NCBI GenBank assembly: GCA_016215325.1
Contig: JACRJV010000017.1
Location: 1-54,428 of the forward strand
DNA from: Candidatus Uhrbacteria bacterium
Lineage (GTDB): Bacteria > Patescibacteriota > Patescibacteriia > JACRJV01
Reading direction: 5' to 3'
Length of the DNA stretch: 54,428 bases
Shown: in pieces, positions 1,339-32,405 of the stretch
Numbering within the stretch: the stretch's first letter is position 1
Layout of the letters: each line of letters begins with the position of its first letter
The notes under the pieces: model-generated
Database searches by the model: none
What the model saw: the letters and a program-made list of their open reading frames with translations, nothing else
What the model was told of the DNA's origin: nothing
Program-made: the position numbers and the translations under genes

Positions 1339-3111
1339 ATGCGCGTGACCACGTGGACAATTTTTCGCGAATACCTTCGATCATTGAAGCGCTATCGGGC
1401 GTTGGTCACCTTCATTGTTGTGATGGTGGCCATCGCTTCGATGATTGAGGTCGCAGTCCCGCTCTTTTATAAGCGGTTTTTTGACGTGCTCTCGGGCCCG
1501 GCAGCTTCCTACACCGTCCTTCGGAACACGATCGTGACGATTGCCATCTTGAACGGTTGTATTTGGCTTTTGTACCGTTTGGCAGCGGCAGGAGAAATTT
1601 ACCTCATGGGCAACATGAATGTCGACCTCATCCAACGGGGGTATGATTATCTGCAATTCCATTCATTCCGGTTTTTCTCCAACAGTTTTGTGGGGTCGTT
1701 GGTGAAGAAAGTCACACGCTTCAATCGCTCCTTTGAAACCATCGAAGATAAGATTCTTTGGAACCTGTACCCGCTGGCGCTGCGCATCATCGCCGTGGTG
1801 GCGGTGCTCTTTACGGTCCATCGGACCATCGCGATCATTCTCTTGATGTGGACGCTGCTTTTTTTGTTCTTTAATTACTGGTTTGCCGTATGGAAGTTGC
1901 CATACGATGAGCGCCGTGCTGCCAAAGATAGCGAAATTACGGGCGTGCTGGCCGATGCCATCACCAATCATAGCAACATTCATTTGTTCTCAGGGTTCCG
2001 ATTTGAGCTTGCCCGGCTCCAGAATGTGGCCAATCAATGGCGCAAGCTACGGGTTTTTACATGGTCGCTCGAGCAGGTTATGGAGTCTGCCCAGTTTGCC
2101 CTGGCCATCTTGGTAGAATTTGGTCTCATGGCATTAGCATTGCGGTATTGGCGCGATGGCTTGCTGGGCGTGGGCACCTTTGTGTTGCTGCAGACATATT
2201 TCATCCAACTGTTTATTCGCCTTTGGGATTTTGGTCGCAATGTGCGCAACATCTACGAAGCTCTCGCTGATGCACGAGAAATGGTCGAAGTCCTCTATAC
2301 ACCGCACGAGATTACTAATGCGCCGGCCGCCAAGATGCTGCGAGTAGAGTCTGGCCACATTGAACTCAAGAAGGTCACGTTCAGTTACCATCAAACGCGC
2401 ACGATCATCCATGGGATCGACCTTGCGATTGCCGGTGGCCAAAAAGTCGCGCTTATTGGTCCGTCGGGGTCTGGCAAATCGACCATCGTTAAGCTGCTCT
2501 TCCGGCTCTACGAAATCGACAGCGGGAAGTTGTTGATTGACGAGCAGAACATTCAAAAAGTCACCCAAGAGAGCTTGCATTCAGCGCTGAGTTTGGTCCC
2601 GCAAGACCCGATCCTTTTCCATCGGACGCTGATGGAAAACATCCGTTACGGCCGGCGCGATGCCACGGATGCTGAGGTGATCCGCGCGGCGACCCTTGCG
2701 CATTGCCATGAATTCATTAACGATTTCCCGAACGGTTACGAAACCTTTGTGGGCGAGCGCGGGGTGAAACTTTCCGGAGGGGAGCGACAGCGTGTCGCCA
2801 TTGCTCGCGCGATTTTACGCGATGCGCCGATCCTGGTGTTGGACGAGGCAACTTCGAGCCTGGATTCGCACTCCGAAGCGCTTATTCAAGATGCGCTCAA
2901 AAATTTGATGCACGGCAAAACCACGATTGTCATTGCCCACCGGTTATCGACGATCCAGCAGATGGATCGGATCGTGGTACTGGATCATGGACGCATTGTG
3001 GAGCAGGGGAGCCACGCGAGTTTGCTTAAGACAAAGGGCAGCATGTATCAAAAGCTCTGGAAGATTCAAGCCGGAGGATTTTTGGTTGACGAAGAGGAAG
3101 AACAGGAGTAG
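1339..3111 (+). CDS. ABC transporter, fused permease/ATP-binding protein
   Basis: 590 aa; N-terminal TM region, Walker A GPSGSGKST, signature LSGGERQRVAIARA, Walker B ILVLDEATSSLD. Confidence 0.93.
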   Translation: MRVTTWTIFREYLRSLKRYRALVTFIVVMVAIASMIEVAVPLFYKRFFDVLSGPAASYTVLRNTIVTIAILNGCIWLLYRLAAAGEIYLMGNMNVDLIQRGYDYLQFHSFRFFSNSFVGSLVKKVTRFNRSFETIEDKILWNLYPLALRIIAVVAVLFTVHRTIAIILLMWTLLFLFFNYWFAVWKLPYDERRAAKDSEITGVLADAITNHSNIHLFSGFRFELARLQNVANQWRKLRVFTWSLEQVMESAQFALAILVEFGLMALALRYWRDGLLGVGTFVLLQTYFIQLFIRLWDFGRNVRNIYEALADAREMVEVLYTPHEITNAPAAKMLRVESGHIELKKVTFSYHQTRTIIHGIDLAIAGGQKVALIGPSGSGKSTIVKLLFRLYEIDSGKLLIDEQNIQKVTQESLHSALSLVPQDPILFHRTLMENIRYGRRDATDAEVIRAATLAHCHEFINDFPNGYETFVGERGVKLSGGERQRVAIARAILRDAPILVLDEATSSLDSHSEALIQDALKNLMHGKTTIVIAHRLSTIQQMDRIVVLDHGRIVEQGSHASLLKTKGSMYQKLWKIQAGGFLVDEEEEQE

Positions 3112-3262
3112 AACGGAGAGGAGGATTCACTTTTTTGGCTGCGGAACTCACGTCCCGATAGGGATCGGGAACGCCCCAACATGCATCATCGACATTCAAC
3201 CGCAGCATGTCGGGGCTCGCTCAAACAGTCCTCGCTCAAAAAAGTGAATACTCCTCTCCGTT
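3112..3262. repeat. ~151-bp structured inverted element, copy 1
   Basis: Outer arms AACGGAGAGGAGGATTCACTTTTTTG / CAAAAAAGTGAATACTCCTCTCCGTT (25 of 26 paired); inner stem CCCCAACATGC/GCATGTCGGGG; shares core motifs with 31704-31852. Confidence 0.85.
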
Positions 3263-3280: not shown

Positions 3281-3898
3281 ATGGAGGATTGGAAGGCGCA
3301 GTATCGCAATTTCGCGCTGCAGGAAAAATTACTTCGGCAGCTTTTTGTTGACCGTTTTCCCGGCGATGAGTCCCGCCTTGTGGCTGCCCTGGAACTGGCA
3401 AAGAAAGCCCACAAGGGGCAAAAGCGCGATGAGGGGGACCCATATGTGATCCATCCGATTCGAGCGGCCCGGTATTTGGCCGAACACCTAAAGGAGCGCG
3501 ATCATGAAGTTATTATGGCCATGATCTTACATGATGTGGTGGAAGATACCACCGTCACGCTTGAGCAGATTCGCCAGCGGTTTGGTGATCGCGTTGCCCA
3601 ACTTGTTGATTCGGTCACCCGGCCACGCGCCAACGATGAGACAGAAGAAGAAAAGTTGACCAGCAAACCTCGGAACTATCAAAAGGTGCTTTCATCCGGC
3701 AACGAGACAATTCGAATCAAGGCTGCCGATATTTTGGATAACATGCGTTCCTGGGAAAATACCAAAGAGCAAACGCGCAAGAGTCCAAAAATATCGCGGT
3801 GGCTTGATGAGGCGCACCGGTATTATTTTGAAATCGGCTGCCGCGCCGGCGGGACAGTAGAGCAAGAGATGCGCCAGATTGCCGCGATGTTCAATTAA
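3281..3898 (+). CDS. HD-domain (RelA/SpoT hydrolase-like) protein
   Basis: AHKGQKRDEGDPYVIHPIRAA and ILHDVVEDT motifs; ATG at 3281 within the ORF starting 3266. Confidence 0.85.
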   Translation: MEDWKAQYRNFALQEKLLRQLFVDRFPGDESRLVAALELAKKAHKGQKRDEGDPYVIHPIRAARYLAEHLKERDHEVIMAMILHDVVEDTTVTLEQIRQRFGDRVAQLVDSVTRPRANDETEEEKLTSKPRNYQKVLSSGNETIRIKAADILDNMRSWENTKEQTRKSPKISRWLDEAHRYYFEIGCRAGGTVEQEMRQIAAMFN

Positions 3899-30316: not shown

Positions 30317-30405
30317 TTTTCAATTCTTAATTTTCAATTTTCATTCATTTTTCAATGATTTATTGAGTATTCATTGTAAATTTTAACTTGAAAATTGGAA
30401 ATTCG
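30317..30405. repeat. TTTTCAATTCTTAATTTTCAA inverted word-repeat spacer
   Basis: Left TTTTCAATTTTCA..., right ACTTGAAAATTGGAAATT. Confidence 0.7.
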
Positions 30406-30409
30406 TCTT

Positions 30410-31696
30410 GTGCCCAAACTCTGGCAATCGACCTCGACGCCATTGCACCCCCTTGTGGAGAAGTACACCGTTGGCAATGATTATATCCTGGACATGCGAC
30501 TGCTGCCGTTTGACATCGAAGCGAGCAAAGCCCATGCGCAGGCGCTGCTTAAGGCCCATATTATCACCGCCCAAGAATTGACAAAACTCAATACGGGACT
30601 TGACGAAATTTTCGCATTGCACGCCAAAGGAGAATTTGTGATCCAACAGTCGGATGAGGATTGCCACACCGCGATTGAAAATTACCTGACTAAGAAACTT
30701 GGTGATTTAGGGAAAAAAATCCACACGGGCCGCAGCCGCAACGATCAGGTGTTGGTGGCCACACGCCTCTATACGCGCAAGAAGCTCAAGCAAATTAGCG
30801 TCGAGCTCGTCAAACTCCAGCGGGTGTTTTTGGCTATGGCAAAACAATACGAGTTTTTACCGTTGCCGGGCTACACGCATACGCGCCGGGCGATGCCCTC
30901 CAGCATTGGGCATTGGGCTGCTTCGTATCTGGAGGAACTCATTAACCACCACATGCTGTTGGAGACTGCGTATAAGCTCAACGATCAAAATCCCCTGGGA
31001 GCTGCGGCAGGATTCGGTGTGAACCTCCCATTGGATCGCGAGCTCACAACCCGGTTGCTTAAATTCAAGCGGGTCCAAATAAATTCACTGTACTGCGTGA
31101 ATACTCGCGGAACCACCGAAAGCTATATTCTATCCGTATGCACTCAGATGGTGATGACGCTCTGCCGGTTGGCCACCGAGATGATTTGGTTTACCACCCC
31201 GGAGTTTAATTTTTTCGACCTGCCGTACGAGTTTACGACCGGCTCCTCGGTCATGCCGCAAAAACGCAACCCCGATGTGTTTGAAATTGTCCGCTCTAAC
31301 GCGAGCATCATCATTGGCCTGCAAACGCAGGTGAAAGATATTTCAAAAAATCTTATTTCCGGTTACAACCGCGATACGCAACTTACCAAAGAACCCCTGA
31401 TCAAAGGGCTGGGTATTACGCGCCGGAGTCTTGAGGTGGTGAGTTTAGTGATGGGCAAGATGAAACCCAAAAAAGAAGTGCTTATGCATTCGCTCTCGCC
31501 AGAATTCTTTGCCGTGCATGAAGCGAATCGGTTGGTCAAGAAAGGGATGCCCTTCCGCGATGCGTATCGGCATGTTAAAGAACATTTGGACGAGATCAAG
31601 GTACCGGATCCGGTCAAGGCGATTAAGGAAATAACTTCGCTCGGAGGACCTGGGAATTTGCAGCTCAAGAGGTACAAGATTAGCAGACCCCTCTAA
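30410..31696 (+). CDS. argH: Argininosuccinate lyase
   Basis: GRSRNDQVLVATRLY, YTHTRRAMPSSIGHW, TGSSVMPQKRNPDVFE; GTG start. Confidence 0.95.
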   Translation: MPKLWQSTSTPLHPLVEKYTVGNDYILDMRLLPFDIEASKAHAQALLKAHIITAQELTKLNTGLDEIFALHAKGEFVIQQSDEDCHTAIENYLTKKLGDLGKKIHTGRSRNDQVLVATRLYTRKKLKQISVELVKLQRVFLAMAKQYEFLPLPGYTHTRRAMPSSIGHWAASYLEELINHHMLLETAYKLNDQNPLGAAAGFGVNLPLDRELTTRLLKFKRVQINSLYCVNTRGTTESYILSVCTQMVMTLCRLATEMIWFTTPEFNFFDLPYEFTTGSSVMPQKRNPDVFEIVRSNASIIIGLQTQVKDISKNLISGYNRDTQLTKEPLIKGLGITRRSLEVVSLVMGKMKPKKEVLMHSLSPEFFAVHEANRLVKKGMPFRDAYRHVKEHLDEIKVPDPVKAIKEITSLGGPGNLQLKRYKISRPL

Positions 31697-31703
31697 AATG
31701 GTG

Positions 31704-31852
31704 CACGCCGCCAGATGTTCACCGGTTCCTGGCTGCGGAACTCGCCTGCATCGGGCACCATCCCGACCAGTACCAGCCACAATCGTCCGAAGCTGGTCGG
31801 GATTGGCTCACACAGTCCTCGCTGGCGGAACCCGTGAATATCTGGCGCCGTG
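31704..31852. repeat. ~149-bp structured inverted element, copy 2
   Basis: Outer arms CACGCCGCCAGATGTTCACCGGTTCC / GGAACCCGTGAATATCTGGCGCCGTG; inner ATCCCGACCAG/CTGGTCGGGAT; core motifs shared with 3112-3262. Confidence 0.85.
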
Positions 31853-31860
31853 GCCTTATA

Positions 31861-31893
31861 AAAACATCTCCGATAAAATCGGAGATGTTTTTA
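31861..31893. terminator. Bidirectional-looking intrinsic terminator
   Basis: AAAACATCTCCGATaaaATCGGAGATGTTTTTAT. Confidence 0.85.
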
Positions 31894-31910
31894 TAGAATA
31901 TTTCTACTCT

Positions 31911-32297: not shown

Positions 32298-32307
32298 ACC
32301 TCTTATT

Positions 32308-32377
32308 GTCATCCTCGGGCTTGACCCGAGGATCCACGGATGGATGACCATGGATCCCCGATTAGGTCGGGGATGAC
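32308..32377. repeat. Paired palindromic repeat GTCATCCTCGGGCTTGACCCGAGGATCCA / TGGATCCCCGATTAGGTCGGGGATGAC
   Basis: Two imperfect hairpins, together forming an inverted pair. Confidence 0.8.
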
Positions 32378-32405
32378 GGAATAGTATAGTAATGAGGAAT
32401 ATTCA

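Follow-up and report, generated by a model that had tools for sequence, protein, structure and literature searches.

A dispersed palindromic element with an invariant core and copy-specific arms, oriented with replication in the Patescibacteria tested and probably acting as folded DNA

We analyzed a 54,428-nucleotide stretch of DNA from Candidatus Uhrbacteria bacterium (contig JACRJV010000017.1; hereafter the window) and found that two similar segments in it belong to a dispersed palindromic repeat. Repeats of this kind are known, but the anatomy and reach of this one are unusual. A core that recurs exactly in distant phyla is enclosed by arms that differ from copy to copy and remain self-complementary, the unit is gained and lost as a whole, and in the Patescibacteria tested it keeps a single orientation relative to replication. 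The evidence points to an element that acts as DNA, folded on the minus strand. The best reading, to which we give about an even chance, is a dispersed, REP-like mobile repeat that forms a single-stranded DNA (ssDNA) hairpin and is served by a predicted trans-acting enzyme.

Inspection of the window placed copy 1 at 3112-3262 and copy 2 at 31704-31852, each of which folds alone into long stems. The coordinates, arms, left motif, and inner stems of both copies were exactly as an earlier note on this DNA had described them. The parts of the two copies are as follows.

3112-3137, plus strand: outer stem left arm of copy 1, AACGGAGAGGAGGATTCACTTTTTTG; copy-specific, pairs with 3237-3262 with one mismatch
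3138-3149, plus strand: left half of the invariant core of copy 1, GCTGCGGAACTC; helix 2 of the model, 100% paired
3151-3152, plus strand: two-base covarying helix of copy 1, CG with CG at 3218-3219; helix 3 of the model
3154-3169, plus strand: small inner hairpin of copy 1, CCCGAT/ATCGGG, from the alignment and helix model
3174-3215, plus strand: main inner hairpin of copy 1, CCCCAACATGC/GCATGTCGGGG, from folding, alignment, and the helix model
3219-3236, plus strand: right half of the invariant core of copy 1, GCTCAAACAGTCCTCGCT, from motif search and alignment
3237-3262, plus strand: outer stem right arm of copy 1, CAAAAAAGTGAATACTCCTCTCCGTT, from pairing with the left arm
31704-31729, plus strand: outer stem left arm of copy 2, CACGCCGCCAGATGTTCACCGGTTCC; starts 7 nt past the stop codon of the ORF at 30395-31696
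31732-31743, plus strand: left core of copy 2, GCTGCGGAACTC, from motif search
31760-31803, plus strand: main inner hairpin of copy 2, ATCCCGACCAG/CTGGTCGGGAT, from folding
31806-31823, plus strand: right core of copy 2, GCTCACACAGTCCTCGCT, from motif search
31827-31852, plus strand: outer stem right arm of copy 2, GGAACCCGTGAATATCTGGCGCCGTG, from pairing with the left arm

The left arm of copy 1 adjoins the stop codon of an upstream ABC transporter ORF (1339-3111), and the main inner hairpin of this copy, with a loop of about 20 nt, is a long form of the terminal hairpin of the family. The left motif TGGCTGCGGAACTC occurs without mismatch at 3136 and 31730. With three mismatches allowed, this short motif by itself gave five sites against 4.8 expected, which is not significant, whereas the exact copies are significant. 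The right motif gave two matches within three mismatches, compared with 0.08 expected in shuffles; the consensus proposed earlier for it (GCTCRCWCAG...) is present, except that copy 1 reads GCTCAAACAGTCCTCGCT, one mismatch off. Just past copy 2, at 31860-31896, lies a perfect A/T-flanked hairpin, AAAAACATCTCCGAT...ATCGGAGATGTTTTT, by appearance an ordinary intrinsic terminator. Positions 32306-32380 are taken up by a different palindromic repeat, TGTCATCCTCGGGCTTGACCCGAGGATCC...GGATCCCCGATTAGGTCGGGGATGAC, which is unrelated to the first and has another copy in the same genome (locus L127, near minus-strand offset 2581).

Searching the window's own genome with the left motif revealed further copies carrying the same right motif, and a covariance model search identified 14 strong copies there and more in other genomes; the description of a two-copy element thus holds for the window only. 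We analyzed the helices in an alignment of 10 copies from this genome, using shuffled and slid alignments as controls. The alignment contains five helices: the outer stem, a core helix, the two-base helix, a small hairpin, and the main hairpin. Of the cells, 87% were paired, compared with 67% in shuffled and 36-44% in slid controls, and two-sided changes were seen in 62 cells versus 20, values that none of 500 shuffles reached; 21 pairs showed two-sided change. The two-base helix reads CC/GG or GC/GC in other copies and is 100% paired, both of its pairs having changed on both sides. The earlier proposal of conserved strands between covarying helices, with pairing that is selected or actively maintained, is supported by this strong covariation.

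The outer stem, about 18-30 bp long, differs in sequence at almost every copy and is self-complementary throughout. Read on the minus strand, the invariant core is GCG[A]GGACTGTYTGAG...GAGTTCCGC and forms a helix that contains a single bulged A, a single G.T pair, and an internal loop that is asymmetric; about 23 of its bases are fixed. A K-turn reading of this internal loop was dropped by hand, as the loop has five bases rather than three. The terminal part is variable, with two hairpins in the window's genome and often a single hairpin with a C(GNA)G cap elsewhere, and it is shorter in many matches of the covariance model within the class. At the stem ends, a flank table showed a weak GG/C before the element and TT after it, followed by A-rich sequence. 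At two loci (L111 and L285, in genomes G140 and G309), a variant core, CTGCGGGGCTCGTC...TATCTCGAACA..TCCTCG, is arranged in tandem with copies that are either degenerate or standard, possibly as a subfamily or a decay product.

To describe the distribution of the family, we combined the covariance model with scans for the exact core. The model matched 27 of the 288 genomes of the class, several of them with 7-11 copies. In species genomes, an exact scan with the pattern GCGGAACTCN{6,36}TCARACAGTCCTCG located the core GCGGAACTC...TCARACAGTCCTCG in at least 120 stretches of DNA spread over about ten phyla; chance alone should produce well under one match, as roughly estimated from uniform composition. 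Among the matches listed were Beta- and Gammaproteobacteria, Nitrospirota, Coriobacteriia, Lachnospiraceae, Bacteroidales, Myxococcota, Spirochaetes, Chloroflexi, Gastranaerophilales, and Patescibacteria, and the cultured carriers among them included Dechloromonas hankyongensis and Niveibacterium sp. 24ML. A count of the core in 21 carrier genomes gave 292 copies (1-62 per genome), compared with none for a reversed control pattern. The short-form exact core was present in 8 of 384 Patescibacteria sampled. Two viral contigs matched the core; searches of E. coli and of phage collections returned no match, and plasmids gave weak partial matches only. Along one contig (G284:C2, 188-383 kb), seven copies lie on the same strand, six of them roughly 33-44 kb apart by position and one an extra close copy.

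In Proteobacteria, the element often occurs as inverted pairs about 200-300 bp apart. In Betaproteobacteria (L152, L159, L215, L218, and similar loci), such pairs sit within larger palindromes, bounded at L152 by AAGAAGGCGACC/GGTCGCCTT. No transposase was recognized among the ORFs between the inverted pairs at L169, L174, and L179. ORFs spanning these three regions read like KKVTKEKATPV and look spurious.

Some copies lie inside genes. In lepA of genome G019, one copy is in open frame and corresponds to about 60 extra residues at a loop relative to 24 homologues in related genomes. Two other reading frames are likewise kept open across a copy, a MurC-MurB fusion frame of the window's genome and a C39-like peptidase frame, both genes being named by inspection of their translations. 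These cases agree with the mention, in the earlier note, of similar translated fragments among protein predictions.

Rfam searches with the window element, the class loci, and the broad loci gave nothing at the gathering score, and searches at weak E-values produced chance-level matches, consistent with the earlier statement that no described class was recognized. That note had named a restriction to two copies, a lack of covariation, or an Rfam match as evidence against its candidate; we found instead many copies, strong covariation, and no such match. A literature search by core sequence on both strands, with subscription journals and most repeat catalogues outside its scope, returned unrelated primers and chance matches only, and a search for Patescibacteria repeats gave nothing relevant. 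One literature match, to a Histophilus sRNA, was rejected because it is a sigma-54-like site. It is possible that the family appears under another name in earlier literature.

The strand that folds can be read from the mismatches in the outer stem. On the plus strand of the 64 class copies, these were A.C in 48 cases and G.T in 16, which on the minus strand become 48 G.T and 16 A.C; an independent broad set gave 50 A.C and 22 G.T on the plus strand. The core pairs fully on the minus strand (GCG[A]GGACT with AGTTCCGC, the left core of copy 1 as read on that strand, including the bulged A and a G.T pair); at the position of this last pair, the plus strand shows an A.C mismatch. Folding of the whole element likewise favored the minus strand, in 127 of the 136 broad copies under RNA parameters and in 118 of the 136 under DNA parameters. 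Terminal loops in the broad set read C(TTC)G, C(TGC)G, or C(TAC)G on the plus strand, equivalent to C(GNA)G on the minus strand, with a ratio of 59:0, and GNRA and UNCG tetraloops were nearly absent. Loops of the C(GNA)G or d(GCGAAGC) type form extraordinarily stable DNA mini-hairpins, and structured RNAs usually prefer tetraloops. The triloops therefore favor DNA, without proving it, and together with the replication orientation and the gain and loss of whole units they favor folded DNA over RNA.

Orientation relative to replication was determined by GC skew in the 20-kb surroundings of each copy in five patescibacterial genomes of the class, with |skew|>0.02 taken as usable. The plus strand of the element was the G-rich strand at all 44 usable pattern matches, with none opposite; removal of a false match in a coding gene (L117, at 10633) left 43 of 43. 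Two further copies in G309 both followed the skew, and a sixth genome (G074), which has almost no skew, stood outside the orientation count. Flanking genes were arranged as (+,+) in 25, (+,-) in 7, (-,-) in 6, and (-,+) in 4 of 42 intergenic contexts, and all eight copies with an antisense upstream gene and scorable skew followed the skew. In the Patescibacteria tested, orientation thus tracks the direction of replication and not that of genes. In other phyla, represented by short contigs, the counts were 17 versus 8, so that the rule is not strict there. At least three pairs of copies in G140 and G179 were inherited by descent, which reduces the number of independent orientation events.

Orthologous sites within one genus showed that the element comes and goes as a unit. 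The mraZ-side copy of G140 is missing in G309 and G179, and its rnhB-side copy is missing in G309, G179, and G310. Beside dnaK, both G140 and G309 carry a copy, whereas G310 has only a gap of about 12 bp that contains no hairpin. At each of the three loci the arms are gone together with the core, and no target-site duplication was seen at the few empty orthologous sites compared. The dnaK-side site of G179 (L275, G179:C3, about 3500-3700) contains a different, REP-like double palindrome of the form GTAG...CTAC, indicating that different palindromes have occupied one intergenic spot. Species with about 70-75% DNA identity have some copies in common at orthologous sites, and such persistence suggests a function.

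The arms change while their pairing is kept. Between copies common to species they have diverged, by about half of the bases as judged by eye in one G140-G179 pair, and remain paired. In seven related copies of G190, a genome with subfamilies that have common arms, 95% of cells were paired and 10 of 21 pairs showed two-sided change. For the arms of 11 copies in the window's genome, nothing else in that genome matched, apart from four exceptions: a 17-nt match in a partial copy on contig C23, a 21-nt match at 90%, and two 14-nt matches at chance level. The idea that the arms are captured genomic or target DNA was rejected, as the genome contains no other occurrence of them beyond the partial copy and such short weak matches, and they are missing from empty sites. 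Template switching between arms during replication is reported to create and maintain complementary stems (PMC8794818), and in E. coli it has a strand bias (PMC6357072). Of the possible accounts of arm upkeep, this one is the most economical, with or without selection.

If the element is a REP-like mobile repeat, an ssDNA recombinase or an enzyme of the HUH type, acting in trans, would recognize the invariant core and move the unit via folded ssDNA produced at replication forks, and strand-dependent insertion or survival may then fix its orientation. The arm sequence itself would not be read; compensatory change would keep the arms complementary, perhaps assisted by replication template switching between them. 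Several observations count against mobility of this sort. The arms are mostly unrelated among copies of one genome, which is odd for a simple copy-paste element unless the copies are old or the arms are rebuilt. No transposase or recombinase linked to the element was found in the carriers examined: Y1_Tnp is absent in G140, G284, G028, G288, G292, and G293, several of which are copy-rich, and elsewhere it was never adjoined or flanked by the element, and the integron integrase (TIGR02249) was over the cut-off in only 1 of 20 carriers. The folded minus strand is not the lagging-strand template, so that a plain IS200/IS605 insertion model predicts the opposite orientation. The persistence of some copies at orthologous sites, the looser orientation and frequent inverted pairs outside Patescibacteria, and the failure to see a target-site duplication at the few empty sites weigh on the same side. 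In addition, the preference of RNA parameters for the minus strand counts against a DNA reading. We propose, tentatively, a more specific claim: that the family is an undescribed class of ssDNA mobile or replication-coupled elements spanning phyla, with an invariant core, arms rewritten yet kept complementary by template switching at forks, a single replication orientation in Patescibacteria, and a putative enzyme that serves it.

The earlier note had favored a structured RNA, which would be a regulatory, processed, or ribozyme-like molecule from the minus strand with active internal loops and variable stems as a scaffold. Covarying helices around invariant loops, the 127:9 preference for the minus strand with RNA parameters, and the preference for G.U-type mismatches on that strand are what such an RNA would show. 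However, orientation follows replication rather than neighboring genes, in 32 of the 42 intergenic contexts the upstream gene lies antisense to the minus strand, the loops are predominantly C(GNA)G triloops with hardly any GNRA or UNCG tetraloops, Rfam has no match, and a ribozyme or riboswitch would not usually have stems that reach about 30 bp; with whole units also gained and lost, we now consider RNA unlikely. A DNA site maintained by the host for fork function, segregation, or repair, held by selection and not spread by transposition, would account for the 43 of 43 orientation count, for orthologous copies kept in G140 and G179 and in G140 and G309, and for core conservation across phyla. 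Its probability is equally low, given a very patchy distribution even by the short-form exact core and the class model, orthologous sites that gain or lose the element, copy numbers from 1 to 62, the lack of a match in E. coli, and the looser orientation in other phyla.

Insertion of the core into the center of pre-existing palindromes, with the arms being target DNA, has a precedent in REP dimers, some of which are reported to insert into palindrome centers (PMC3733652), and it would explain why the core is constant and the arms vary by locus. Yet the empty sites hold no palindrome (the gap near dnaK in G310; mraZ and rnhB sites without arms in G309 and G179), and related G190 copies have common arms, leaving this explanation very improbable. 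We give even less weight to intrinsic terminators or mRNA-stabilizing hairpins at gene ends, an option that the earlier note had raised as a structured terminator. Many copies do have a stop codon no more than about 10 nt upstream of their start, but the stem has no U-tract on its 3' side (the flanks read only TT and then A-rich), ten copies lack a co-directional gene on their upstream side, a separate terminator of ordinary type comes after copy 2, and an invariant core would not be expected.

A fixed core that is exact in distant phyla, within surroundings that vary and yet stay paired, would imply an unrecognized DNA-recognition system common to unrelated bacteria. In the Patescibacteria tested, the strictness of the replication orientation offers a handle on how the element moves or survives, and its arms are a natural record of how inverted-repeat complementarity is kept up, a point not yet settled for hairpin evolution. 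Spurious protein fragments in annotations may also have their origin in this family, as may insertions that keep the frame in lepA and other conserved genes.

Among known systems, the palindromes of REP/RAYT and IS200 type (GTAG- and CGTC-tagged; PMC3733652) are likewise short, dispersed, intergenic, and multi-copy (14 copies in the window's genome and 1-62 elsewhere for the present element), with an ssDNA hairpin as the likely active form, and the inverted pairs of Proteobacteria resemble them as well. In contrast to their terminal GTAG/CGTC tag, the stem-end flanks of our element have no conserved tetranucleotide; its stem is much longer and copy-specific outside the invariant core; and it has no adjoining RAYT and is not confined to RAYT-bearing genomes. 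Since it fails two defining REP features, we do not file it as a REP, and the TnpA-REP style option of the earlier note is not supported, there being neither tag nor adjoining Y1 transposase. MITEs have terminal inverted repeats common to their copies and a target-site duplication; the arms here are inverted repeats that are unrelated between most copies, and no target-site duplication was seen at the few empty sites. Self-cleaving ribozymes and other Rfam RNAs, including twister-like layouts, have similar conserved internal loops between variable helices, but the element has DNA-type triloops, replication orientation, a much longer outer stem, and no Rfam match. Integron attC sites, another option raised earlier, are also bottom-strand folded DNA with an extrahelical base, an unpaired spacer, and a variable terminal structure. 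However, the R-box (RYYYAAC/GTTRRRY) was not seen on inspection of the stem ends or core, the integrase was not over the cut-off in 19 of 20 genomes, and conservation is internal and the variable stem external, opposite to the layout of attC. The palindromic elements of Rickettsia are similar in length, at about 100-150 bp, and can likewise sit in frame in coding genes; the likeness is one of behavior only, as the present element is trans-phylum, surrounds an invariant core with copy-specific arms, and is oriented with replication.
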